NCBI GenBank assembly: GCA_012031265.1
Contig: JAAUTY010000015.1
Coordinates: 1-64,000, forward strand
DNA: 64,000 nt
Source: Spirulinaceae cyanobacterium SM2_1_0
GTDB taxonomy: Bacteria > Cyanobacteriota > Cyanobacteriia > Cyanobacteriales > Spirulinaceae
Reading direction: 5' to 3'
Both the position numbers and the translations under genes were made by a program. Positions 33,085-47,713 of this stretch are shown here, piece by piece (within the stretch, counting starts at the first letter, position 1; each line of letters begins with the position of its first letter). A model generated the notes under the pieces. The model did no database searches, was not told the origin of the DNA, and was given only the letters and a program-made list of their open reading frames with translations.

Positions 33085-33420
33085 ATGGATCGACTAGACC
33101 AGCAGCGCGAAGCCATCCACAGTGTCCTGCAAGCCCACCTACAGATTGCAGAACGGAATCGCGATCGCACCCCGATCGAGACCTTCGCCCTCACCAATGC
33201 TGCGACTGACGACTACTTCCTGCTCGCCACCGATTACAAAGCGGGTCAGCGGGTCTACGGCGTCCTCGTCCACCTTCGCCTCCACGACGGCAAAATCGTC
33301 GTTGAGCAAAACAACGTCGAGGACTTTATCGAAGACTTGATCGATCTCGGTGTCCCCGAAGATGAACTGGTTACTGGTAGCGAACCGGGCGATCGCGCGC
33401 CGAGACAGATTTCTGTTTAA
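33085..33420 (+). CDS. XisI-like protein
   Basis: 111 aa. XisI (fdxN-element excision-controlling factor) proteins are short and contain a shared core: YFLLATDYKAGQRVYGVLVHLRLHDGKIVVEQNNVEDFIEDLIDLGVPEDELVTG here. XisI normally sits directly after xisH, which is absent. In most cyanobacteria XisH/XisI pairs are unrelated to heterocysts and XisH is nuclease-like. The ATG at 33085 follows a GAGGGAGATCG sequence, a fair Shine-Dalgarno. It lies 22 bases after the orphan antitoxin gene. Confidence 0.8.
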   Translation: MDRLDQQREAIHSVLQAHLQIAERNRDRTPIETFALTNAATDDYFLLATDYKAGQRVYGVLVHLRLHDGKIVVEQNNVEDFIEDLIDLGVPEDELVTGSEPGDRAPRQISV

Positions 33421-34671: not shown

Positions 34672-34809
34672 CGGGTGAATCGCGGCCGCGGCGAGTCGCG
34701 GGCGGGGGTGCGGGCCTGACCAGAGGGCGATCGCGAACTCGACTTTTGTCGAATAGGCGCTGAGGCGAAGCGCAACCTATATTAGGCGCACCCTGGCTTG
34801 TACTTCATC

Positions 34810-35232
34810 ATGCCGCGACTGCCTCACTCAACCTCCAATCAACCCCACCTCGGCTGTGGCGTGAGCTTCCCGCTGCAAATCGATGCGCGCGGCAACTTAC
34901 AGTTCAGTGCGGGTGAGCAGAGCGTGCGGGAATCGATCGGTCTGATCCTGGGTACGCAACTGGGTGAGCGCGTCTACCGGGCTAACTTTGGCTGCCGCCT
35001 TGCTGACCTGGCGTTCGCGCCCTTGAATACGCAGACCCTGCTGACCATGCGCCTGCACGTCGAGGAAGCCCTGATCGCCTGGGAACCGCGCATCTTGCTC
35101 GACGCCGTGCGAACGGAGCCAGACCCGGTGCGGGGTCGCGTCAATATCCTCATCAACTACCGCCTGCGTGAAAATTACGCAGCAGGGAGCTTGGTGTACC
35201 CCTTCTATCTCCAGGCTGACGGCGATCGCTAG
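34810..35232 (+). CDS. gp25-like baseplate protein of a contractile injection system
   Basis: 140 aa from ATG 34810 (a TTG at 34798 would add four residues). The core is GPW/gp25 (T4 gp25, Afp9/Cis9): LQFSAGEQSVRESIGLILGTQLGERVYRANFGCRLADLAF and TMRLHVEEALIAWEPRILLDAVRTEP. The residues EPRI are the conserved gp25 baseplate-wedge motif. gp25 initiates sheath assembly at the baseplate. It is the first of three baseplate genes here. Gp25 of phages and secretion systems are all about this size, so it is complete. Confidence 0.88.
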   Translation: MPRLPHSTSNQPHLGCGVSFPLQIDARGNLQFSAGEQSVRESIGLILGTQLGERVYRANFGCRLADLAFAPLNTQTLLTMRLHVEEALIAWEPRILLDAVRTEPDPVRGRVNILINYRLRENYAAGSLVYPFYLQADGDR

Positions 35233-35345
35233 CACCCAAAGCGAAAGAGAACGTAAAGGCTGCTACATCCACGCGGTTTGCGAGTTAGGAAGGAAAGGCG
35301 TGCAGTCCGCTGCCGCCAGCTAGCCGCTTATTTCCTGGCTGATCT

Positions 35346-37550
35346 ATGGACTTAGATTTTCTGCCGAACCTGCCCAAGTCTGACCTCGACGATCGGCGCT
35401 TTGAGGATTTAGTCGAGGAATGCTTACTGCGGATTCCGCGCTACTGTCCGGAGTGGACGAATTATAATCCCAGCGATCCTGGCATCACGCTGATCGAGCT
35501 ATTTGCTTGGCTGACCGATCAGATGATGCAGCGCTTCAACCAAGTGCCGCGCCGTCACTACGTCGCCTTCTTGGAATTGCTGGGCGTGCGGCTACAACCG
35601 CCGAGTCCGGCGCAGACCGATTTAACCTTTTACCTCGCGGGTGAGCTGCCGCAACGCTACACGATCCCGGCCGGGGTTGAGGTGGCGACCGAACGGACGA
35701 GCACCGAGGCGGCGATTGTGTTCAGCACCGATCGGCCGCTGGTGATCGATAAACCGCGCCTGTGCTACTTCCTCACCGCCAACCAGACCGAAGCGACGCC
35801 GCAGATTCTGCGCGATGCCTTTGCCAACCTCTGGAACGAGCAAACGAATGGCGCTTGGTCGGGTCCAGAACTCCCCATCTTCAACGACCAACCGCAGCCG
35901 GGGAACTGCTTTTACCTCGTCTTTGGGGAAGCTGAGCTGATCGAAGGTAATGTCATTGCGCTGACCGTGCGCGGGCAAGCGGCGACGCCCACCGGGATTG
36001 ATCCGAATAATCCGCCCCGGCGCTGGGAAGCCTGGGACGGCGCTTTTTGGCAGCCGGTGTTGCTGGAAAATGCCGACGACGCCACCCAGGGGTTTAGCTT
36101 CAACGAGATCGCTCGCCAAGGCGGCAACCCGTTGCAGGGTGCCGATATTCTCCTGCACCTGCCCCAGAGCTTTCCGGTGACCCAGTTTGGCACCTATCGC
36201 GGCCGCTGGTTGCGCTGCGCCTATACGATGCCGCGCCTGACCCAATCGAGCTACAACGCCGCACCGCGCATCGTTGGTCTGTCGGTACAGGCGACGGGTG
36301 GCACGGTGAATGCCAGTCAGGGTCGCCGGGTTGAGCGCGAGTCGCTGGGCGCGAGCAATGGCAAGCCGGGCCAGACCTGCCAACTGCGGGAGCAGCCGAT
36401 CTTGCCGCGCCAAGAGGATGAGTATTTGGTTGTTGTGCCGCCGGGGGGCTTGCCGCAGCGCTGGCTGGAGGTGAGTGATTTTGCCGACTCCGGCCCCGAA
36501 GACTTGCACTACACGCTGGATTCGGTGAGTGGCACGATTCAGTTTGGGCCGCTGATTCGCGAGCCGAGTCAGTTGCGGTTAGCGACGTATGCGCGATCGC
36601 GCCAGCAGCGAGACCTCAGCCGCAATGGCACGGCCCTAACGGAGGCTGCGGCCACAGGCTCTGAACGCATCAACCACCTCGAACACCAGTACGGAGCGAT
36701 CCCGCCCCGTGGCTCCCGTCTGATCTTCGCGGCCTACCGTACCGGCGGCGGTCAGCGCGGCAATGTCCAGCGCCATACTCTGCGGGTGGTCAAGGCGGCG
36801 GTTCCCTATGTCACGGGGGTCACCAATCACGGTCCGGCGCGTAATGGTTCCGATGCTGAAACCCTGGAGCAGGCGGCGCTGCGAGTACCACAGTTGCTCC
36901 GTAGCCGCGATCGCGCGATCACGCCGGAAGATTTTGAGATTTTGACCCTCCAAGCGGGTCGCGGCGCGGTTGCCCGTGCCCGTTGTCTGCCCGCCGATCT
37001 CGAACATCCCGGCACGACCACCCTACTGGTAGTGCCTCAGGCGAGCGAGGCTCTACTTGACCAGGGACAGGGGTTGATGCCGGATCTCTTCGCCCTGACG
37101 CCGGAGCTGGAACAGCAAGTGTTGAGCTATCTCAATGATCGCAAGCTGCTGGGAACACAGATCCGCTGCCGTCCGCCTGATTATGTAGGCGTCGCGGTGC
37201 AGACGGAGGTGGCGCTGGAGCCGGCCTACAACAATCCCGATGCCCGCCGCGAAATCCTCACCCAGCTTCGGACGGCTCTGTACCGGTTTCTCAACCCGAT
37301 TTCGGGCGGCAATGACGGCCGGGGTTGGCCCTTTGGTCGCCCTGTTTACCCGTCTGACATCGTGGCAATCTTTCAGCGCGTCGCTGGCATTCGCTACCTG
37401 GGCGCGGTACAACTGTTTGCGCTCCGACGAACTAATGGCGGTTGGACACGCTTACCGCCGGCGCCGGTCGTGGATCCCGGCCCCCATGGGTTGATTGCCT
37501 CCTGGGCTGACCCGCACCTGCGTTCGGCCCATATCGTCAACGTCGCCTAA
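35346..37550 (+). CDS. Baseplate J-like assembly protein of a contractile injection system
   Basis: 734 aa. The N-terminus LDDRRFEDLVEECLLRIPRYCPEWTNYNPSDPGITLIELFAWLTDQMMQRFNQVP is the standard signature of putative baseplate assembly proteins of phage-like injection systems (Afp11/Cis11, T4 gp6 class). Further features: a beta-rich middle, GTIQFG, GGGQRGNVQRHTL, then SRDRAITPEDFEILTLQA and PSDIVAIFQRVAGIRYLG near the end. The protein forms the baseplate wedge with gp25 and tail protein I. The gap of 113 bases before ATG 35346 has no clear Shine-Dalgarno. Full length and intact. Confidence 0.9.
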   Translation: MDLDFLPNLPKSDLDDRRFEDLVEECLLRIPRYCPEWTNYNPSDPGITLIELFAWLTDQMMQRFNQVPRRHYVAFLELLGVRLQPPSPAQTDLTFYLAGELPQRYTIPAGVEVATERTSTEAAIVFSTDRPLVIDKPRLCYFLTANQTEATPQILRDAFANLWNEQTNGAWSGPELPIFNDQPQPGNCFYLVFGEAELIEGNVIALTVRGQAATPTGIDPNNPPRRWEAWDGAFWQPVLLENADDATQGFSFNEIARQGGNPLQGADILLHLPQSFPVTQFGTYRGRWLRCAYTMPRLTQSSYNAAPRIVGLSVQATGGTVNASQGRRVERESLGASNGKPGQTCQLREQPILPRQEDEYLVVVPPGGLPQRWLEVSDFADSGPEDLHYTLDSVSGTIQFGPLIREPSQLRLATYARSRQQRDLSRNGTALTEAAATGSERINHLEHQYGAIPPRGSRLIFAAYRTGGGQRGNVQRHTLRVVKAAVPYVTGVTNHGPARNGSDAETLEQAALRVPQLLRSRDRAITPEDFEILTLQAGRGAVARARCLPADLEHPGTTTLLVVPQASEALLDQGQGLMPDLFALTPELEQQVLSYLNDRKLLGTQIRCRPPDYVGVAVQTEVALEPAYNNPDARREILTQLRTALYRFLNPISGGNDGRGWPFGRPVYPSDIVAIFQRVAGIRYLGAVQLFALRRTNGGWTRLPPAPVVDPGPHGLIASWADPHLRSAHIVNVA

Positions 37551-37598
37551 TCGCTGCCGCCCTGGCGACGCCCACTTTATCCCTCTCTGGAACTGCAT

Positions 37599-38648
37599 AT
37601 GTCCGCAACGCTCGACCTGCAACTTGTTCCGCTCCGCCTGACCGAGGCGGCACCGGTTCCGACCGGCACGGGGTCTGAGCTGGCGATCGCGGGGAGCCAA
37701 AATCAGGACATCGTGCTGCGTCCGGCCGAACCGCACGAGGTCTCGATTCGACTGGAAAACCGCAGTGCCCGCCCGCTCAACTTTGAGTTGCGCGCGGTTG
37801 GGAATTTCCCCAGTGAATGGTGCGAAATCCTGACACCGACGACAAGCCTACAACCCCACCAGCAACAGGAAGCGGTGCTGCTCTTTCGCGTTCCCCCCGA
37901 CTACTTCGAGCAGACGGGAGCGTTGGCCGCGGGCGATCACCACACCCTGGACTACAGCGGCAACCTCGAAGTCTATGCGGCTCACGATGATGCGCCTCGG
38001 CAACTGGTCGAGACGGCGGTTTTCAATGTGTTCGTCCGGCCGACCAGCCTCTACAGTGACTTCGTGCCCAGCATCTATCGCCAGAGCGACTTTCTCAATC
38101 GCTTTCTGGCGCTGTTTGAGCAGGCCTTTGAGCCGGATGTGGAGATTCTCGATAACTTCTGGGCCTATCTCGATCCGCTGTTGGCCCCGGAATCGTTGCT
38201 TCCCTTTCTCGCTCATTGGGTGGGCTGGCCTCTGCAACCGCAACTGAACCTCAATGAGCAACGCCAACTGATCCGCCACGCGATGACCATCTACCGCTGG
38301 CGCGGGACACGGCGAGGTCTGCGCTTTGCCCTGCATCTGGTCACGGGCTTGCCGCTGGATGTGCAGGCCGCCAGCGAAAATGAACGCCACATTGGCATCT
38401 ACGAGTCCTTTAGTCGGGGCTTTGTGCTTGGCGAGACTCAGATCGGTCAGGATGCTACGCTCGGCGGCGGTCAACCCTACCATTTCAGCGTGCGCTTGCG
38501 GCTGTTGCCGGGGATGGAGCTGGAGCGTGCCGCCATTGAGACGACGATCGAGCGCGAGAAACCCGCGTTTTGCACCTACGACTTGATGCTTGAACCCGCA
38601 GGCAGCGGCCCTGACGCGAATGGTCAGCAGTCCGCGCTGAATACTTGA
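37599..38648 (+). CDS. Tail protein I-like baseplate protein with an N-terminal Ig-like domain
   Basis: 349 aa. The C-terminal 220 residues are a phage tail protein I domain (Afp12/Cis12; TIGR02242 type): SDFVPSIYRQSDFLNRFLALFEQAFEPDVEILDNFWAYLDPLLAPESLLPFLAHWVGWPL, RHAMTIYRWRGTRRGLRFAL and GLPLDV, ending with a beta-strand block. The N-terminal 150 residues form a beta-sandwich (VSIRLENRSARPLNFELRAVG, NLEVYA) that is not part of standard tail-I proteins and resembles the Ig-like domains of the protein at 45503-47713. This suggests the two proteins share a binding mode or come from one family of domains. Confidence 0.87.
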   Translation: MSATLDLQLVPLRLTEAAPVPTGTGSELAIAGSQNQDIVLRPAEPHEVSIRLENRSARPLNFELRAVGNFPSEWCEILTPTTSLQPHQQQEAVLLFRVPPDYFEQTGALAAGDHHTLDYSGNLEVYAAHDDAPRQLVETAVFNVFVRPTSLYSDFVPSIYRQSDFLNRFLALFEQAFEPDVEILDNFWAYLDPLLAPESLLPFLAHWVGWPLQPQLNLNEQRQLIRHAMTIYRWRGTRRGLRFALHLVTGLPLDVQAASENERHIGIYESFSRGFVLGETQIGQDATLGGGQPYHFSVRLRLLPGMELERAAIETTIEREKPAFCTYDLMLEPAGSGPDANGQQSALNT

Positions 38649-38754
38649 ACTTGGCATTGAGCCGTTCTGACCAGCGACCCCCTGCCTACACTATTACCCA
38701 ACCGGCTATCGTCCGCCTTCCGTCTGCCACTCCCTGAATAACTGGTTACTGACC

Positions 38755-40092
38755 ATGGCTTCGCGATTTTCGTCCCTCCCTCTGCAACCACTTGAGCGCC
38801 TGTACACCAGTGACGGTCTGTTGTTGAGTGCCGATCTCTGGCAACGTGCCCATGCCTACCATCGTCAGCGCCAGAATGTTCACTACCAGGCGTTGAACCA
38901 GGCGGGCATTGTCGCGGGATTGGGCGTCAGCGTCACGGCGGCTCCGGCTGAGGTTGCGTCTCAGTATCGCGATCGCCGCTGGTTGCGAGTTCAACCCGGC
39001 CTCGCCATCGACAGCCACGGGAATCCGATCGTCATCGATCGTCCCATCGATTTCCGCATCGCCTCAGTGGCGGAAACGCAACCGGTCGTGGTTTATCTCG
39101 TCGCCAGTCATGTTGACCCCGACCGACTCCAACGCCGCAATGGCACGATTTTGGTGCAGGAGCGCTTTCGGATCGACGAAAAAATCAGTCCGCCCCTCGC
39201 TGGTGAGATCGAGATTTGCCGTCTGCAGCTTTTGCCCGGAACGCCCACCCTGGCGAACCCGCGTGATGTGCTCAATCCCGGCCCCCAAGAACTTGATCTG
39301 CGCTACCGCCCCGCTGCCCAGTCGCGCGCGCGCGGTAGCATTCGCCTCGCCACGCTCCCGGCAGTCACCGACTATGCGGCTCGGGGAGCTAGCAATTGCG
39401 CGGATCTGCTCGCCGCCTTGCCAGCACTCTACCCGGGGCTGAGCGCGGCGGGACCGCCGGTGACTTTGCAGTTGCCGGGCGATCGCGCGACACTGTTTGA
39501 CTGTGACCTTGTTTACCTGACCCGGCAGCAGTACTGTGACGGCGAGCTTGCGGTGCGACGGAGTTTGCAGGACTATGTTCGAGCCGGTGGCAATCTCTTG
39601 ATCGAGATGCCCGATGCCACGACAAAGATTAATGATCTCAAGGGGGCGATCGCCGAGATCCAGGAGGCGATCGCCGACATCAGCACCAGCGCCGACCTCG
39701 CGGACATTCGCACCGAACTGAACAACGAACTCGCCGCCTGCCAGGATAAGCTCCAAGGCTGGATGGCTGCCCTGCGCCAGTCTTTTGCGGAGCTACTCGC
39801 CGCTGCTGGGACTTCACCCGCCGAATCGGGCCGCATCGGCCGCCAGCATCCGCTGCGTCGTCAACCCTTTCTCTTTGCCCAATGGCCGCTCATTTACCAT
39901 AAACCGGTTGAATTTCTCACCTGGGGCGGCATCATCCTCGCCATCGGCGATCTCTCCCTGGCTTGGGGCATCGATGACGACCTGCTACTGTCGCGCGAGA
40001 CCATCCGTACTGCCCACGAAGTCGGCATCAATCTCCTCCATTTTGCTTGGCAGCGCCGCGAACTGGCTCAACTCCTCCAACCTGATAGTTGA
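38755..40092 (+). CDS. Baseplate-associated protein with a DUF4159-like C-terminus
   Basis: 445 aa, no clear orthologue known to me. The N-terminus RLYTSDGLLLSADLWQRAHAYHRQRQNVHYQALNQAGIVAGLGVSV then RVQPGLAIDSHGNPIVI is the entry domain common to proteins encoded inside phage-tail-like and contractile-injection clusters. The middle has a coiled-coil stretch (INDLKGAIAEIQEAIADIST). The C-terminal half has CDLVYLTRQQYCDGELAVRRSLQDYVRAGGNLLIEMPD and a later HPLRRQPFLFAQWP, resembling the glutamine-amidotransferase-like DUF4159 fold. I see no catalytic triad. Role inferred: tail-fibre-like or sheath/baseplate accessory. Low certainty on the DUF4159 assignment. Confidence 0.68.
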   Translation: MASRFSSLPLQPLERLYTSDGLLLSADLWQRAHAYHRQRQNVHYQALNQAGIVAGLGVSVTAAPAEVASQYRDRRWLRVQPGLAIDSHGNPIVIDRPIDFRIASVAETQPVVVYLVASHVDPDRLQRRNGTILVQERFRIDEKISPPLAGEIEICRLQLLPGTPTLANPRDVLNPGPQELDLRYRPAAQSRARGSIRLATLPAVTDYAARGASNCADLLAALPALYPGLSAAGPPVTLQLPGDRATLFDCDLVYLTRQQYCDGELAVRRSLQDYVRAGGNLLIEMPDATTKINDLKGAIAEIQEAIADISTSADLADIRTELNNELAACQDKLQGWMAALRQSFAELLAAAGTSPAESGRIGRQHPLRRQPFLFAQWPLIYHKPVEFLTWGGIILAIGDLSLAWGIDDDLLLSRETIRTAHEVGINLLHFAWQRRELAQLLQPDS

Positions 40093-40157
40093 CCATTACC
40101 GACCATTGGCAAATCCCCGGGTGCCAAATGCTGAACCTGCTCCCCCCGAACTGAATC

Positions 40158-41624
40158 ATGACTGCCCCTCCCGCTCCCCGTCGCTCATTGTCCTCGATTC
40201 GCTACACCCTGCCATTTCTACTGGTAGCGCCGATCATCATGACCGTGGTGCTGAGTGTCGCCTTCGCCATCTACAACGGCCGCCGGGCGGTGCGCGATTT
40301 TGGCACCACCGTATCGATCAAAACACTCGGCTCGATTGAGCAACACGTCGAAGCCTATCTGGACAAGCCGAGTCTGCTGAATCGCGCCCACGCCGCCACC
40401 GCCAACTCAGTGCTCCTCAATCTTGAGGATACTGAGTCCCTGGTCAGCTACTTCTGGCAGCAGTCAAAACTGTCTGAGGATGCTGACCTCGACTCGCTTT
40501 CGTTTGGTAGCACGACGGGCGAGTTCGTCCTTGTGCAGCAGTTTCCCGATGACACGGGCGAGCTGCGCATCCGCACGACTGAGACGGCTCCGAATCGCGA
40601 GTTCTACCGCCTTAATAGCGTCGGGCTGCGGACGGGTCGCACTCGCGTCCAGGAATATGATCCCCGCACACGCCCTTGGTATCAAGCGGGTGTCGAGGCG
40701 GGCCGACCGGTGTGGAGTTCGATTTTCCAGGCCGCCGATGCCTCGACCCTCAACATTTCTTCGATCGTGCCCATCTACAACGATGGCAGGGTCTTGCAGG
40801 GTGTCCTGGCGGCGACGATTCGACTGGAGGCGCTGAATGACTTTCTCACGGGTCTCGATATTTCACCCAACGGTGAAGCATTCATCGTAGAAACCTCGGG
40901 GGAGCTGGTCGCTAGCTCCACTCGCGAACCGGTGGTGGTCGAGCAGGAAAATGGCGATCGCCAACGTCTGTTGGCGGTTGAGAGCAGCGATCCGCTCCTC
41001 GCTAGAACGGCGCAAGAACTGCTCACCCGCTTTGAACGTCTGGATGCGCTCGAAGAGTTTGAAAGCTTTAGCTTCCGACTGGATGGCGGCCGTCAAGTCG
41101 TCAGCATCGTGCCACTCAACCCCGATCTCGGCCTCGATTGGTTGGTGGTAGCGATTGTGCCTGACCAGGACTTTAGCAAGATCATTAACGATACAATGCA
41201 GGCCACGCTGACGATCGGCAGCGTGCTCGCTTTCCTGGCGGTTGTGCTCGGCTTCTATGCCGCGCGCTGGTTGGTGCGCCCGATCGAACACTTGGGGCGT
41301 GCTGCCCGCGATATTAAGAGTGATCGCTTCCAGCCCTACACCCTACAAGAGGTCGTGGCCCGCCGTGACGAATTGGGCGATCTGGGCCGCGCCTTCCAGG
41401 ACATGGGGATTGTGATCAGTGATCGCCAACAAAGTTTCACAGCGCAAGTTCAGGAACTGCGTCAGCAGACCACTGCAGCGGATTCGGCCTCGATGCGCGG
41501 CATCGAGATCGCCTACTACCGCGCCTTGCAGGACAAGGCGAAATGGCTCCGTAGTCAACAGGCGATGGACACCGCACCGCTCGCCAACCCAGACTCACAG
41601 ACCAACGACAACCGTGCAAAATGA
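40158..41624 (+). CDS. dCache-HAMP membrane receptor without output domain (receptor 1)
   Basis: 488 aa. One membrane helix near the start (LPFLLVAPIIMTVVLSVAFAIY), then an exported dCache_1 sensor domain with the hallmark DPRTRPWYQAGVEAGRPVWSSIF and a second cache lobe (LDISPNGEAFIVETSGELVASS), ending GLDWLVVAIVPDQDF. A second helix (about 351-372) leads into a HAMP domain (WLVRPIEHLGRAARDIKSD, RDELGDLGRAFQDMG). After HAMP only a short coiled-coil and about 60 unstructured residues remain: no kinase, cyclase or GGDEF. It is the first of three paralogues. Start ATG 40158, 65 bases after the DUF4159-like gene. Confidence 0.88.
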   Translation: MTAPPAPRRSLSSIRYTLPFLLVAPIIMTVVLSVAFAIYNGRRAVRDFGTTVSIKTLGSIEQHVEAYLDKPSLLNRAHAATANSVLLNLEDTESLVSYFWQQSKLSEDADLDSLSFGSTTGEFVLVQQFPDDTGELRIRTTETAPNREFYRLNSVGLRTGRTRVQEYDPRTRPWYQAGVEAGRPVWSSIFQAADASTLNISSIVPIYNDGRVLQGVLAATIRLEALNDFLTGLDISPNGEAFIVETSGELVASSTREPVVVEQENGDRQRLLAVESSDPLLARTAQELLTRFERLDALEEFESFSFRLDGGRQVVSIVPLNPDLGLDWLVVAIVPDQDFSKIINDTMQATLTIGSVLAFLAVVLGFYAARWLVRPIEHLGRAARDIKSDRFQPYTLQEVVARRDELGDLGRAFQDMGIVISDRQQSFTAQVQELRQQTTAADSASMRGIEIAYYRALQDKAKWLRSQQAMDTAPLANPDSQTNDNRAK

Positions 41625-41673
41625 AGGTTCTTTGTCCAGATCATGCGATCGCGCCGCTCGGCGCGCTGAGAAG

Positions 41674-43059
41674 ATGGTCAAGCTCGCGCTCTCTCTCAAA
41701 CGGACGATTCCCCTGCTCGTTGTCGTGCCGCTCCTAGCCGCGACTAGCCTGACCGGTTGGCTCGCTTTACGCAGCGGTCGCAAAACCGTGGATGTGCTCT
41801 CGGAAGAGTTGACCGCCAAGGTGGCGGCTCACGTCGCCGATAATTTGGCGACCTACGTCCGTCGCCCCCATCAGATCAATCAGCTTAATGCCGAAGCGAT
41901 CCGCCTGGGTCAGCTCAATCCCAGTCGTCTCGATCAACTCGAAACGCACTTCTGGCAACAGATTCAATACTTTCCCAGTACCCAGTATCTCTACTTCGGA
42001 GCGGCAGATGGTTCCTTTCGCGGAGCCGAGCGGCTTGGGGCCAACCAACTGGCGTTGAATGTTGTGGATCGCAGCCAGCCCGAACAACTCGTGCGTTATC
42101 TCGCTAGTAGTAATGGTGGGCGGACGAGTATCCTGGATGAACAGTCGGGCTACGAGCCGCGTCAGCGTCCCTGGTATCGAGCAGCGATACAATCCGATAC
42201 TCCCACCTGGAGCGAAATCTATCCCGATTTCAACTCACAGCGCTTGGGCATCACAGCTGTCCAGGCGATCCACTCAACCGACGGCCGCCTGCTGGGAGTG
42301 TTGGGAGTTGATTTATTTTTCGAGGGCCTGGAGGGATTCCTCGGCAATCTTCAGGTCGGCCGCAGTGGTCAGGCCTATATTATCGAGCGCGATGGTTTGC
42401 TCATCGCCAGCTCTAACCAGGGTATGACGACAGACAGTGAAGGCGAAGCCCGTCTTTCGATTGCTGACAGCCCCGACCTTTTGGCTAAGGCGACTGCTGA
42501 GGCACTGATTGCTGCCTCGGGCGACTTGAGCTTGATCGGCGACAATCGCCAGGTTACCTTTCGGGCGCTCGGTCAACGCCAATTTTTGCGTGTGCGTCCC
42601 TTCACGGATGCCTACGGCCTCGATTGGCTGATTTTGATCGTCGTGCCGGAGCAAGATTTTGGCGCTGGGTTGCGAACCCAAGTGATTTGGACAGCGATTC
42701 TGGGTGGTTTAACGTTAGGCATTGCCAGTGCCATCGGCATTGCCATCAGTCGCTGGCTCGTGCGCCCGATTGCTCGGTTCAATCAGGCGGCGAGCGAGAT
42801 TGAGGCGCAAGCGTTTGACCCCGAAAGTCTCGATGACATAGCGGCACGTGATGATGAGGTGGGTGAGTTTGCCCGGGTCTTTCGGGAGATGGGTCTCGCT
42901 ATCGATGATCGCCAAGCGATGCTGGATATGCAAATCCGTGATCTCAGCGACCAGGAGAGTAGTGCAGAGACCAAGCACGAAGCTGTTCGTCAACAACTGT
43001 TGCGTTTGCGCGATCGCGCTCGTGACCTGCAAGCCACGCTCAAGACCGATGGGTTTTGA
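41674..43059 (+). CDS. dCache-HAMP membrane receptor without output domain (receptor 2)
   Basis: 461 aa from the ATG at 41674. The frame continues upstream inside the first receptor gene, but family alignment starts MVKLALSLKRTIPLLVVVPLL. Same layout as receptor 1: a helix, a dCache_1 domain with YEPRQRPWYRAAIQSDTPTWSEIYPD and LGNLQVGRSGQAYIIERDGLLIASS, GLDWLILIVVPEQDF, helix 2, HAMP (WLVRPIARFNQAASEIEAQA, RDDEVGEFARVFREMG), then a coiled coil that ends the protein. No output domain. The three receptors share clear paralogy, especially the HAMP block and DPRxRPWY motif. Confidence 0.87.
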   Translation: MVKLALSLKRTIPLLVVVPLLAATSLTGWLALRSGRKTVDVLSEELTAKVAAHVADNLATYVRRPHQINQLNAEAIRLGQLNPSRLDQLETHFWQQIQYFPSTQYLYFGAADGSFRGAERLGANQLALNVVDRSQPEQLVRYLASSNGGRTSILDEQSGYEPRQRPWYRAAIQSDTPTWSEIYPDFNSQRLGITAVQAIHSTDGRLLGVLGVDLFFEGLEGFLGNLQVGRSGQAYIIERDGLLIASSNQGMTTDSEGEARLSIADSPDLLAKATAEALIAASGDLSLIGDNRQVTFRALGQRQFLRVRPFTDAYGLDWLILIVVPEQDFGAGLRTQVIWTAILGGLTLGIASAIGIAISRWLVRPIARFNQAASEIEAQAFDPESLDDIAARDDEVGEFARVFREMGLAIDDRQAMLDMQIRDLSDQESSAETKHEAVRQQLLRLRDRARDLQATLKTDGF

Positions 43060-43286
43060 GCGGCGTGGGATGGGGTGTTTGACCGCGTTCAATGTTTTGA
43101 TAATGTCAAAAAAACGGGTGAGGAGCCATCCAGGCATGAGCAGTGGCACCTTGATGCCAGCCCTGAGTTTTTTCGAGGGTCGCAGCACGGGGTAGCGCCC
43201 CGTCACCCGCCCAGGGCGATCGCGTCACGCCTGAAAGATGAAACCGCCAAAATCCGATCGACGACCAGTTGTGTGCCATACCGCTT

Positions 43287-45164
43287 ATGTCTATGCTCTC
43301 GCTCAAACGAACCGTGCCGCTCCTGATTGTGATGCCCCTGCTTTTAGCCGTTGGCATGACCGGTCTCCTCGCCTTTTTCAACGGCCGCCGCACCGTCAAT
43401 AATCTCACCGCCACCCTGACGCACAAAGTCGCGCTCCACGTCCAGGACAACCTCCAGGCATCGCTAGAAGAGGCGCGGATGGTCAATCGCATCAATGCTG
43501 ACGCCCTGCCCCGCGACTCGTTCGCGATCGAGACCAGCACTGACCTTGAGAAGCAAATCTGGTCGCAGATTGAGGCATTTCCAACGCTGGCATCGATTTA
43601 TGTGGGCAACGCTCAGAGTGAGCTAGTGTCGGCAACGCGCAGCCAATCCGGGGAAATCGCCACCATCGGCATCGCCGGTCCCATCACCGACAACCAGTTC
43701 CAAACCTTCACGACAGATGCCCAGGGTGATCGCCAAGAATTGGTCTCAGCAACGCCCGACTATGACCCGCGCCAGCGGCCCTGGTATCAGGATGCGATCG
43801 CTGCTGGTAGCCCGGTTTGGGGGTCGATTTATGTCTGGTTAGCTCCCTATCCCAATCTCGCCCTGCCCGCCGTACAGCCCGCCACCTCAGAGTTACTGGC
43901 GGTCGTCGGAGCAGACATTTCTCTGCTCGCGGTTGGGGACTTTCTCAGCAGTTTGCAGGTCGGCCGGTCTGGTCAGGTATTCATTATCGAGCGCGACGGC
44001 CTGCTGATCGCCACCTCAACCACCGAAACACCTTACAGCGGTCAGTTTGAGCGGATTGATGCCAGCGAGAGTAGCAACCCCCTCACCCGGGCGACTGCCC
44101 GCGCCGTGTTGAGGGAATATGGCAATTTTGCCGCGGTGGAACAGGAGGAACGCTTCAACTTTCGCCATCGCCTCCGTAACCACGTGGTGCAGGTCTACCC
44201 ATTTCGGGATGGACGCGGCCTCGATTGGCTGATTGTGGTCGCGATTCCGCAGTCTGATTTTACGGGAACCGTGAATATGCAAGCGCGGACGACGCTCCTC
44301 CTGGGGGCGATCGCGGTCGGGATCGCCACGGCACTCGGCTTACTCGCCGCCCGCCGGACGCTACAACCGCTGGTGCGCCTGAACACAGCGGCGGTCGCCC
44401 TCAAAGCCCAGCAATTCGAGCCGCAAGCGATCGCCGATTTGACCGAACGCCAGGATGAGGTCGGCGAATTTGCGCGGGTCTTTCAGGCGATGGCGGCGAC
44501 GATCGGCCGGCGCACCCAGAGTCTGGACGAACAGTTGCGGGCTTTGAACTTAGAAGTGAGTCGTGCTCAGTGGCGTGATCGCAATGCGGAACTGATCCGG
44601 CTCAAACCCCACCAGAAACAGATTGCAACGATTCGGCAGATCAATCGTCTCCAGATCGACCTGAAAACCCTGCTAGAGCGCAGCGTTTTCTTCTGTAACT
44701 TTACGCCACGCGAAATGGCGCGCCTGATTGCCAAAGGCTACCAGCGCAACTATTCCCCTGATGATGTTATTTGCCGCGAGGATGAGCCGGGCGATGAATT
44801 TTACATCATCTTGACTGGCCGTGTGGAAATTTTGGTTGAAAAATTGGGCAAGCATCTTAATACTTTCGATGCTGGTGCGGCCTTTGGTGAGCTGTCGTTG
44901 CTACTCGGCATTCCTCGCACGGCGACCGCGATCGCCCGCAACTACACGACACTCTTCATCCTGGCTCGCAACGATCTCAGCGAGATTTTGCAGCAACATC
45001 CACAACTGCGCGATCGTCTCGCCCAACAACTTTACATTCACCAAGCCGAACTCGAAGAACGCCGCGAAATCCTGAATCGTTATAATCTCCTGGACGAGGA
45101 TTTTCAACATCGGCTGCTATTTTGGATTCAGCGCCGTTTAGAAACCTTGTTTGGCGGCACCTGA
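43287..45164 (+). CDS. dCache-HAMP receptor with C-terminal cyclic-nucleotide-binding domain (receptor 3)
   Basis: About 625 aa from ATG 43287 (a TTG at 43269 is in frame). N-terminal half as in receptors 1 and 2: LKRTVPLLIVMPLLL helix, dCache_1 with YDPRQRPWYQDAIAAGSPVWGSIY and LSSLQVGRSGQVFIIERDGLLIATS, GLDWLIVVAIPQSDF, helix 2, HAMP. It adds a helical linker and a cyclic-nucleotide-binding domain at about 480-590: LIAKGYQRNYSPDDVICREDEPGDEFYIILTGRVEIL, with the phosphate-binding cassette FGELSLLLGIPRTATAIA. So a cNMP (cAMP or cGMP) may gate or recruit this receptor. No catalytic domain. Confidence 0.9.
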   Translation: MSMLSLKRTVPLLIVMPLLLAVGMTGLLAFFNGRRTVNNLTATLTHKVALHVQDNLQASLEEARMVNRINADALPRDSFAIETSTDLEKQIWSQIEAFPTLASIYVGNAQSELVSATRSQSGEIATIGIAGPITDNQFQTFTTDAQGDRQELVSATPDYDPRQRPWYQDAIAAGSPVWGSIYVWLAPYPNLALPAVQPATSELLAVVGADISLLAVGDFLSSLQVGRSGQVFIIERDGLLIATSTTETPYSGQFERIDASESSNPLTRATARAVLREYGNFAAVEQEERFNFRHRLRNHVVQVYPFRDGRGLDWLIVVAIPQSDFTGTVNMQARTTLLLGAIAVGIATALGLLAARRTLQPLVRLNTAAVALKAQQFEPQAIADLTERQDEVGEFARVFQAMAATIGRRTQSLDEQLRALNLEVSRAQWRDRNAELIRLKPHQKQIATIRQINRLQIDLKTLLERSVFFCNFTPREMARLIAKGYQRNYSPDDVICREDEPGDEFYIILTGRVEILVEKLGKHLNTFDAGAAFGELSLLLGIPRTATAIARNYTTLFILARNDLSEILQQHPQLRDRLAQQLYIHQAELEERREILNRYNLLDEDFQHRLLFWIQRRLETLFGGT

Positions 45165-45502
45165 ATCTGCCCTGAGAGTCATGACGGCAACTTTTCCTGG
45201 TATGATTTCGACGGATTCTTAAGGCTCTGAAATTTCATCGATTTTTAGGCAAAAAATCAAACTCGGCTGCTCAAGTCTGAAGATTACGGCCAAGGAAATT
45301 TTGGATTTTAAACCTTCAATTTGTAATTAGGGATTCTAGCTTGGCGACGCCAGACCCTGTTGAATGGAGCGTTGCTAACCAAGAATTTATACCAGCCAGA
45401 TTTCGCCCTAGCTGCATCAACCGCAAAATTCCGGCTGCTCTCCAGAGCTTGCTCATGTCGTCAGGCAGTCACACTCCAAGCCCTGAACTTTGAACTTCAA
45501 TC
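45165..45502. other. AT-richer intergenic region before the WD40 membrane protein
   Basis: 338 bases. AT-rich compared with the neighbouring genes; probably carries a promoter for 45503-47713, suggesting that the last gene of the cluster can be expressed on its own. No RNA, repeat or convincing small gene. Confidence 0.35.
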
Positions 45503-47713
45503 ATGAATCTCCAAACCAGTCTCATCGGCGTCCAAATTAATCGCAGAGAGCTACGCTTGCAACCCGAGCAGGAACGCGCCGAGTTTGCCGTTCAGGTCAC
45601 GAACTACAGCGATCGCTTCGCCAGCTTTCAGCTCGAAATTTTGGCGGCTGGCGTGAATGGTAACGGCTCCCAGCGCTGGTACAAAGTCGCGCCGGACGTT
45701 GCCAGCATGAAGCCCCCTGGCGACACGACCGAGTTTCAGGTGGCTATTCTCCAGCCGCCTGTCCCCGGTTTTGCGGGACTGATCAATCTGACGGTGCGCG
45801 TATTCTCGGTGGAGCTGGGGGTCGAGGAACGGCAAGTCTTGCGTCTGACGGTTGAACCGGGGTCAGGAGCAATCGTTGTCACGGTCGAGTTGCCCGAGCC
45901 GGCGCTGCAAGCTAAGCCGGAAGAATCCTTTGAGATCCCGGTACGTCTCCACAACCCCAGCAAGCGCGTCCTCACTGTTCAGCTTGTGCTGCTGAATTTG
46001 CCGGTTGACTGGTTGCTCGAACCCGAACCGCGCTCCTTACAACTCCTAGCGCACCAGTGGATTGAGACCAGCATTAGCGGTCGCTTGCCCAAAGCACGCT
46101 ACGCGATTGGGCGTGACTATACTTTCACGGTGCAAGTCACGCTGACAGGCGGCGTGCCGACGCAGGCGACTGGCACGCTGACCGTGTTGCCGACGGGACA
46201 ACTGACCTTCAGCATCGAGCCGCTCGAGCAGCGTCTGCCGCAACGGCGGCCTTGGCTGCTGCACCGTCGCCCAGAGTCCGCAACATACACCCTGACGCTG
46301 GACAATGCCAGCAACTTGCCGCAGCAGATTCGTCCAGTGGTGCGCGCGCCAGAGTCCACGCCGATCGAATTCAGTTTTTCACCGGCAACGGTGGATTTGA
46401 CCCCTGAATTGGACGCAAATCTCGACTTGGTGGCGACTCCGCGCCGACGCTGGTTTGGTTTCGGTCGTCGCTTCGACTTCGAGATCGAGGTCACCCAATC
46501 GGATCCTCGCTTGCCGATTGAGCCAGCGATCGCCGAGTTGCTCACGGCCAAACGGCTCGAAGCCTTCTCCCGAACAGATCCCAGTCTGCCTGTCAAGCCG
46601 ACCGCAATTCCTCTGACCCTGCGCCTGCTGCCGGTTGTCCCCCGCTGGCTTCAGGGCGCGGCCGCTATCCTGTTGTTCGCTTTGCTGTGGGGGGCTTGGG
46701 GTCTGCGAGTCATCCTGAGCCAGCACGCCGGGCCGGTGAATGTAGTGCAGTTGAGCGGTCTGGGCGATCGCGTTGCTAGCGGCTCCAACGACCAAACCGC
46801 CCGCGACTGGCGGCGACGCGGCGGTGGTTTGAATCCTAGCGGCCCCTTTGCCCGCGTCGAGAAGGCGATCCGCACCCTGCGCTACAGCCCTGTGGAAAAT
46901 AATCACGTTGCGGTGGGGTTAGAAAATGGCGAAATTCAAATCTGGGATCTGCTGGCGCATAACGCCCGCCAACCCCTTGCCAGCTTCTCATTTCAGCGCG
47001 AGGATCGCGTCCTCGGACTCGCCTACAGCCGCGACGCGCGTACCCTATTCAGCGGTCACGGCAGCGGACTGGTTCTGCGGTGGCAGTTGCCCGCTGAGGC
47101 CGGTACGGATGAAGTGACCCTGGCTCAGGAGCAGGAGTTTGATTTCGCGGTCTCCGATGTCGCTCTCGTCGGCCCCGATGAAGCGGTGCTGGCAGTCGCC
47201 GGTCGCTTCAACCAACTCGTCATTTGGGATTGGCGCGAGGAGCAGCGGCGGCTGATTCCCTACGATCTCGGTGGTCAGGACGACTATTTCACTAGCCTCG
47301 CCACGGCAGCAGAGCAGCCCTATTTGCTCGCAGCCGCTGATAATCAAGGCAATATCTCGATCTGGAATCTTCGCCCCTGTCTCACTGCCGATGATGAGTG
47401 CGAGCTGGTTGATCGCTGGGAAAATGAAGCGCAACAGCCTGTCCGCTCCCTGGCATTGACGAATGATGGCTGTCATCTCAGCAGTGTCGGCGATGACGGC
47501 CGTTCGATGCTCTGGCCGCTGGCTGGCCCCGGTCGGCGAGCCGGGAAGTTTATCAACGGTCAGCAGATAGTGCAGTTGCGAACCGAGCTAAATGGTACGG
47601 ATATCCGGTTGGTGGGCGATCACCTCTACATCGCGACTGGCGGCAACGACCGCAAAGTCCGTCTCTACCGCAAACCGCAAACCAGTCCGGGTTGCCAACT
47701 GCAACTGCCGTAG
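45503..47713 (+). CDS. Membrane protein with N-terminal Ig-like domains and C-terminal WD40-like propeller
   Basis: 736 aa. Residues 1-375 hold three repeated beta-sandwich domains that begin with AEFAVQVTNYSDRFASFQLEI, SFEIPVRLHNPSKRVLTVQLVLL and TYTLTLDNASNLPQQIRPVV. A membrane helix follows (LQGAAAILLFALLWGAWGLRVIL, about 384-406), then a WD40-type beta-propeller (VAVGLENGEIQIWDLL, DNQGNISIWNLRPC, SSVGDDGRSMLWPL). It lies in the same orientation after the three receptors. Because the N-terminal domains resemble that fused to the tail-I protein, it may be the membrane anchor for the baseplate. This is inference. No signal peptide is visible. Confidence 0.8.
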   Translation: MNLQTSLIGVQINRRELRLQPEQERAEFAVQVTNYSDRFASFQLEILAAGVNGNGSQRWYKVAPDVASMKPPGDTTEFQVAILQPPVPGFAGLINLTVRVFSVELGVEERQVLRLTVEPGSGAIVVTVELPEPALQAKPEESFEIPVRLHNPSKRVLTVQLVLLNLPVDWLLEPEPRSLQLLAHQWIETSISGRLPKARYAIGRDYTFTVQVTLTGGVPTQATGTLTVLPTGQLTFSIEPLEQRLPQRRPWLLHRRPESATYTLTLDNASNLPQQIRPVVRAPESTPIEFSFSPATVDLTPELDANLDLVATPRRRWFGFGRRFDFEIEVTQSDPRLPIEPAIAELLTAKRLEAFSRTDPSLPVKPTAIPLTLRLLPVVPRWLQGAAAILLFALLWGAWGLRVILSQHAGPVNVVQLSGLGDRVASGSNDQTARDWRRRGGGLNPSGPFARVEKAIRTLRYSPVENNHVAVGLENGEIQIWDLLAHNARQPLASFSFQREDRVLGLAYSRDARTLFSGHGSGLVLRWQLPAEAGTDEVTLAQEQEFDFAVSDVALVGPDEAVLAVAGRFNQLVIWDWREEQRRLIPYDLGGQDDYFTSLATAAEQPYLLAAADNQGNISIWNLRPCLTADDECELVDRWENEAQQPVRSLALTNDGCHLSSVGDDGRSMLWPLAGPGRRAGKFINGQQIVQLRTELNGTDIRLVGDHLYIATGGNDRKVRLYRKPQTSPGCQLQLP

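Follow-up and report, generated by a model that had tools for sequence, protein, structure and literature searches.

Receptor genes without output domains in a recurring baseplate locus of a cyanobacterial contractile injection system

Introduction

Why are three membrane receptors encoded inside a contractile injection system (CIS) locus, between a baseplate-type gene and the gene of a membrane protein? The question is raised by eight plus-strand genes at positions 34798-47713 of a 64,000-nucleotide stretch of DNA, hereafter the window (positions 1 to 64,000 of contig JAAUTY010000015.1, assembly GCA_012031265.1), from the draft genome of Spirulinaceae cyanobacterium SM2_1_0. In order, they encode gp25-like, J-like and tail-I-like baseplate proteins, a Cis13-like protein (C13), three receptors (dC1, dC2 and dC3), and a membrane protein that we call IgWD. 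Profile searches recovered every gene that a first-pass annotation, made from the letters alone, had named in this block, in the order and on the strand given there.

We lean slightly toward reading the block as the part of an intracellular CIS of the Streptomyces lineage that encodes its baseplate and its interface with a membrane; on this reading, dedicated receptors would gate docking or firing by direct contact between proteins. As a CIS the machine is of a known kind, and the receptor-equipped membrane interface is what is new: in the open-licence literature we found no paper joining CIS with cache domains or HAMP receptors, and none describing a WD40 protein of a cyanobacterial CIS.

Results

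Sensor Genes Between C13 and IgWD

Loci were scanned with five cyanobacterial J proteins as queries, yielding 80 named loci that are the best of 413 relatives, and therefore a set biased towards the query; four plasmid loci were added to make 84. C13 and IgWD both lie downstream of J in 38 of these, 18 end less than 4 kb downstream of J with IgWD not in view, and 27 extend at least 6 kb with no IgWD. The last, L018, has no labelled J frame and stands outside the tally; in the insert survey described below it was classed as IgWD without sensor. In 24 of the 38 loci the interval from C13 to IgWD contains one to three membrane sensors, a count that includes L038 and L082, whose sensor frames overlap their neighbours, and across the 84-locus comparison no gene other than the sensors recurs in this slot. 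BLAST found no sensor within 6 kb after J in the 27 loci lacking IgWD. Spirulina subsalsa (L083) has three receptors ahead of IgWD in the same order as in the window, and the gene order gp25-J-I-C13-(sensors)-IgWD is a recurring one that is also seen in distant cyanobacteria.

A second sample comprised 386 genomes drawn evenly across the phylum, with at most two candidates scored per genome among those shown; several of its loci repeat named genomes (e.g., L129 and L022). IgWD was found in 22 of these genomes and J in 27, and J was present in all 22 that have IgWD (hypergeometric 2e-31, not corrected for kinship). A sensor stands beside IgWD in six of the 22, namely the window genome, G116, G241, G193, G255 and G091. 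There are 28 dCache matches in the window genome, three of which are dC1-dC3, so a single nearby receptor would mean little; chance adjacency was rejected on the reuse of the slot in related loci and in the even sample.

Receptors Without Output Domains

Each of the three receptors has two transmembrane helices flanking a dCache domain (dCache_1 E 3.2e-19, 4.2e-19 and 1.9e-17 in dC1, dC2 and dC3), then HAMP, which scores above the curated cut-off in dC1 only and is significant just under it in the other two; dC3 alone adds a cyclic nucleotide-binding domain (Table 1). Profile scans of 32 sensors, the window's three and 29 from relatives (including a sensor of L088 that lies outside the slot), found HAMP in 31, dCache in 29, Tll0287 in three, and the cyclic nucleotide-binding domain in 16. 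Eight families were detected in all at E <= 0.001, and none of them was a kinase, cyclase, phosphodiesterase, phosphatase or methyl-accepting chemotaxis protein (MCP) domain. The first-pass annotation had called the window receptors outputless, and this extends to their relatives: the CIS sensors share an extracytoplasmic sensor domain and HAMP with dCache-HAMP chemoreceptors and sensor kinases, but none of the 32 has an MCP, kinase, GGDEF or other output domain.

The input domain varies. In Kovacikia, Tll0287 takes the place of dCache, while the HAMP and cyclic-nucleotide part aligns with that of dC3 over 346 columns at 32%, and in L137 a Tll0287 sensor and a dCache sensor stand side by side. 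The motif GE-(F/L)(S/A)LL(L/I)G-x-(P/S)RTA is conserved in 15 sensors; we take its E and R to be the residues that contact the nucleotide in CRP-like domains. All three window receptors carry the motif RPWY, the W and Y of which may correspond to those of known dCache_1 pockets, as presented in the available part of PMC11245519.

Among 46 over-cut-off dCache frames from four other genomes, the five in CIS slots measure 467, 474, 505, 636 and 670 amino acids (aa), the other 41 range from 657 to 1943 aa, and the three shortest of all are CIS-slot sensors. That the window receptors are truncation artefacts was rejected on two grounds: sensors of similar length are found in relatives, and dC1-dC3 are tightly packed (49 bases separate dC1 from dC2 and 209 bases dC2 from dC3; the median sensor-to-neighbour gap is 54 bases over 64 pairs, repeated genomes included).

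In a tree of 65 rows, the 32 CIS dCache sensors fall on one side of a single branch (Shimodaira-Hasegawa-like approximate likelihood-ratio support, SH-aLRT, 99) and the 33 other receptors, taken from four genomes, on the other side. Left out of the tree are the three Tll0287 sensors and the receptors that fell short of 100 bits or 300 residues when compared with a profile built from those of the window and L083; this filter dropped 10 of the 25 background frames of the window genome and 9 of the 27 from other genomes, including all of G091. The same split appeared at 100/100 support in an earlier tree with 15 receptors of the window genome. Within the sensors, dC2 and dC3 are each joined to the corresponding Spirulina subsalsa receptor, with 41 and 43% identity, and dC1 is unplaced. 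The tree is unrooted, and the CIS sensors therefore need not form one clade; judged from their sequences, they descend separately from other dCache receptors. Elsewhere in the window genome, four dCache genes (L104, L106, L112 and L123) are seemingly broken by frameshifts or stops, which may be real or assembly errors.

Lineage and Remaining Parts of the Machine

Compared with solved structures, J gave E 2.1e-109 with 9gtp, the CIS of Streptomyces coelicolor, and E 2.5e-09 with 7aeb, the Algoriphagus CIS; the Anabaena thylakoid CIS (7b5h) was absent from the J matches at E <= 1e-3. The sheath matched 8bky/9gtp at E 9.5e-113 and 7b5h (the Anabaena All3325 protein) at E 2.4e-54. Because J and the sheath match Streptomyces far better than Anabaena, the machine, by its sequences, belongs with the Streptomyces cytoplasmic CIS and not with the thylakoid CIS. 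The thylakoid-type assignment, a comparison that the first-pass annotation had made, was rejected on this similarity.

Structure 9gtp was deposited with PMC12237407, the available part of which describes a CIS that cannot contract without the bitopic protein CisA and that takes part in the regulated death of cells exposed to stress or to an unknown signal. The S. coelicolor CIS shares with ours the J and sheath lineage and the gp25-J-tail gene order. In a related cluster on a Streptomyces plasmid, the tail gene is immediately followed by one for a zinc-ribbon protein, whereas the window locus continues with C13, the dCache/HAMP receptors and IgWD, and the other CIS genes of its genome are spread over several contigs of a draft. 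The thylakoid CIS of Anabaena PCC 7120 resembles ours as a cyanobacterial CIS tied to an internal membrane and having a Cis13 gene, but it is of another J and sheath lineage and is anchored by the transmembrane domain of Cis13 together with an extension of Cis12, according to the available part of PMC8894136, in whose main text neither "cache" nor "WD40" is mentioned.

The first-pass annotation had held that sheath, tube, spike and AAA ATPase genes must be encoded elsewhere, and they were located on other contigs of the genome (5.03 Mb, 149 contigs, 99.98% complete). Contig C75 groups the sheath, three tube-type proteins, a Pvc16-type protein and a 721-aa AAA ATPase; C147 carries a hub-type protein (CIS_tube E 2.8e-18) and a VgrG-type spike (Phage_base_V E 1.7e-25); and the short contig C59 has a further tube protein adjoining a protein with a PBP-like domain. 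The genome's sole PAAR match, also on C75, stands apart and has an in-frame TAG, which leaves the spike tip protein uncertain. The draft encodes gp25, J and tail-I as well as sheath, tube, hub, spike and AAA ATPase; the machine is nearly complete, although its genes are dispersed. Pseudanabaena sp. ABRG5-3 has a plasmid-borne cluster in which relatives of both C59 proteins (39 and 47% identity) are encoded in one row with a large protein and with VgrG, PAAR, gp25, J, I, C13, a cache protein and IgWD.

Proteins with a PBP-like C-terminal domain precede a CIS tube gene at L009:4465-6825 (the C59 protein), L011:3783-5939 and L012:492-2903, and those of L011 and L012 also have a kinase-like part that falls below the Pfam cut-off. 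The layout of PBP-type protein and tube gene recalls CisA.

C13 and Its Helical Insert

C13 has only faint profile similarity, to CIS13_fam over residues 21-115 (E 5.6e-10, far below the cut-off) and to DUF4159 (E 3.3e-05, below the cut-off). Its AlphaFold2 model has a mean pLDDT of 88.6, and a fold search returned no PDB match at E <= 1e-3. The best 19-residue hydropathy is 1.51, in a stretch that is modelled with strands, and 12 of 36 homologues pass 1.6. The model includes an insert of about 50 residues, at residues 285-355 of the protein encoded in the window, with helices at 291-309 and 313-343.

In raw counts the insert goes with the sensors. It was present in 31/31 loci with a sensor, in 10/23 with IgWD only, and in 0/28 with neither. 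De-duplication at 95% identity reduced these 82 loci (the window included) to 67, among which the insert was found in all 29 sensor loci and in nine of the 38 others (Fisher p 2.5e-11), and none of the 29 loci without an insert had a sensor.

IgWD and IgTM

The AlphaFold2 model of IgWD (mean pLDDT 88.8, pTM 0.55) places beta domains up to about residue 375, ahead of a helix and a propeller. No Pfam family scored above its cut-off in the N-terminal beta domains, which we read as Ig-like, and the 50 matches listed by a structure search were WD40 propellers of other proteins or large assemblies containing them. The membrane segment passes the hydropathy threshold in 29 of 31 homologues, and its N-terminal side is the more positive in 21 of these 29. 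All four cysteines of IgWD lie in the propeller and are invariant in 31/31 homologues, a pattern that would be consistent with disulphide bonds and with a propeller outside the cytoplasm.

In 23 of the 38 loci, the gene after IgWD encodes IgTM, which is likewise rich in Ig-like domains and has a single membrane segment. Among the 11 loci in which IgWD is distant from J, IgTM is its immediate neighbour in seven and is separated from it by one gene in two. The IgTM homologue of the window genome is on contig C28.

Several other genes were seen near IgWD and IgTM. In two loci that have no dCache sensor, a gene adjoining IgWD was called as a Ser/Thr kinase, at L149:4048-6015 from a profile scan (E 1.5e-46) and at L151:9258-11192 from the start of its sequence, with Pvc16 and AAA ATPase genes close by in both. 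A TPR protein (L015:20333-22183, the one scanned) and six similar proteins come after IgTM, except in L060, where the TPR protein comes after IgWD. The scanned locus, L015, ends in a weak CHAT match, and a protease-like link to cell death is possible. Planktothrix paucivesiculata (L060:16228-21136) has a tandem pair of IgWD-like genes behind one dCache receptor.

Discussion

The slot occupied by the receptors lies between C13 and IgWD, both CIS-linked genes. Because the receptors lack an output of their own and have a baseplate-type protein on one side and a membrane protein linked to the CIS on the other, the simplest output that they could have is contact with another protein. The first-pass annotation had proposed a receptor-gated, membrane-anchored machine, vulnerable to a lack of sheath and tube genes in the genome or of conserved adjacency in relatives. 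Sheath and tubes are encoded on C75 and the adjacency is kept in many relatives, which makes a membrane-linked, receptor-controlled machine a reasonable reading; the thylakoid comparison was off, and gating remains the conjectural part of the proposal.

In what we infer about docking, gating, the direction of signalling, the ligands and cell death, IgWD and IgTM would form a membrane docking site for the baseplate. The dCache domains would bind small molecules outside the cytoplasm, HAMP would relay the ligand-induced change to the cell interior, and a cyclic nucleotide bound to dC3 could provide a second, internal input. The receptors would act by direct contact, most likely with C13, at its helical insert, or else with the Ig part of IgWD; such contact would license docking or sheath contraction; regulated cell death may follow, by analogy with Streptomyces. 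A more specific version is tentative, and we rate it somewhat short of probable: the CIS would be ligand-gated and self-directed, its firing licensed when output-less dCache/Tll0287-HAMP receptors contact the Cis13-like protein or the IgWD dock, the signals would be extracytoplasmic metabolites, some receptors would carry a cyclic-nucleotide switch, and the receptors would be a family of their own with the machine as their only effector.

Several observations weigh against receptor gating. The slot is empty in 14 of the 38 loci (in one of these, L088, a dCache gene lies two genes past IgWD), and 16 of the 22 even-sample genomes have IgWD without an adjoining sensor; the sensors are accordingly an accessory and not an obligate part, and such machines do without them. 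The insert occurs without an adjacent sensor in nine de-duplicated loci, and four insert-bearing genomes of this kind (G060, G087, G127 and G215) have no dCache frame shorter than 595 aa, Tll0287 not having been looked for. On the C13 tree the insert changes only twice, which makes the independent-pairs test powerless; since the link between insert and sensor is thus no independent statistical result, and kinship could explain it, we treat it as a lead and not as proof. The topology of IgWD is predicted from hydropathy, a weak charge bias and a model with a pTM of 0.55. Outside the CIS locus, the window genome also has short dCache frames, of 440, 388, 264, 307 and 255 aa; four of these five look broken, and the 307-aa frame, which overlaps the next one downstream, may belong to a naturally split pair. 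Promoter- and terminator-like sites were no more frequent in the locus than in shuffles and so carry no information on a single transcript. Finally, no CisA homologue was identified in the window genome, in one indirect comparison only: the PBP-type protein of C59 was rejected as a candidate because BLAST showed no resemblance to a zinc-ribbon protein that occupies the place of CisA on one Streptomyces plasmid and was equated with CisA on that ground only, S. coelicolor CisA itself not having been searched.

It is also conceivable, though on balance unlikely, that the receptors control CIS expression or assembly, or another pathway, by way of separate kinases, cyclases or phosphatases whose genes lie elsewhere, with no gating by contact. 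The cyclic nucleotide-binding domain of dC3 and its kin, present in half of the sensors scanned (16/32), would suit such partners, as would the kinase genes that adjoin IgWD in L149 and L151 and the PBP-type membrane genes with a kinase-like part that accompany tube genes. Yet no partner gene recurs in the slot, the receptors are without the domains by which such partners usually read them, and their position is between two genes tied to the CIS. Less credible still is the view that the receptors are passive neighbours, or builders of a membrane platform with no signalling role. Their absence from many loci and genomes is what one would then expect, but they descend separately from other dCache receptors, dC2 and dC3 match Spirulina subsalsa genes that stand in the same order, Tll0287 can replace dCache within the same slot, and the cyclic-nucleotide motif is conserved. 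A thylakoid-anchored CIS of the Anabaena type with receptors added, which was the frame of the first-pass annotation, seems very improbable to us, as the cyanobacterial host, the Cis13-like gene and the membrane proteins would fit it but J and the sheath are much nearer to Streptomyces. The Anabaena anchor is built from Cis13 and Cis12 (PMC8894136, available part); in C13 the most hydrophobic stretch scores 1.51 and is modelled with strands, though 12 of 36 homologues pass 1.6.

The recurrence of this arrangement in distant cyanobacteria suggests that some of these machines may respond to control by an extracytoplasmic signal. The fixed position of the receptors between two CIS-linked genes provides concrete candidates for signal input in free-living cyanobacteria, and the set of loci offers a candidate membrane dock in IgWD and IgTM and a candidate contact point in the C13 insert.

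Features of the Locus

Coordinates are collected in Table 1. The ATG of the gp25 gene is at 34810, within an open reading frame opened by TTG at 34798, and dC2 most likely starts at the ATG at 41674 rather than at 41419, where the longer open reading frame begins.

Table 1. Genes and predicted domains of the CIS locus, in window positions.
Feature	Position	Strand	Evidence
gp25-like baseplate protein	34798..35232	+	PF04965 E 1.4e-21
Baseplate J-like protein, TIGR02243, Cis11 type	35346..37550	+	TIGR02243 E 1.7e-192; Streptomyces CIS 9gtp E 2.1e-109
Tail_P2_I / TIGR02242 protein, Cis12 type	37599..38648	+	TIGR02242 E 1.7e-34; 9gtp chain E, E 1.1e-07
C13, Cis13-like N-terminus and weak DUF4159-like domain	38755..40092	+	CIS13_fam and DUF4159 (both below cut-off), AlphaFold2
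Helical insert of C13, residues 285-355	39607..39819	+	Model; presence in all sensor loci examined
Receptor dC1, TM-dCache-TM-HAMP-short tail, no output domain (TM, transmembrane helix)	40158..41624	+	Profiles, hydropathy
Receptor dC2, TM-dCache-TM-HAMP-short tail, no output domain	41674..43059	+	Profiles, hydropathy; start from sequence
Receptor dC3, TM-dCache-TM-HAMP-cyclic nucleotide-binding domain	43269..45164	+	Profiles, hydropathy
Cyclic nucleotide-binding domain of dC3, residues 493-577	44745..44999	+	PF00027 E 4.8e-20; motif at residue 540
IgWD, N-terminal Ig-like beta domains, one TM helix, C-terminal WD40 propeller	45503..47713	+	Profiles, hydropathy, model
Predicted transmembrane helix of IgWD, residues 381-406	46643..46720	+	Hydropathy, model

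Outside the block, a XisI homologue was found at window positions 33085-33420, upstream of an MFS gene.

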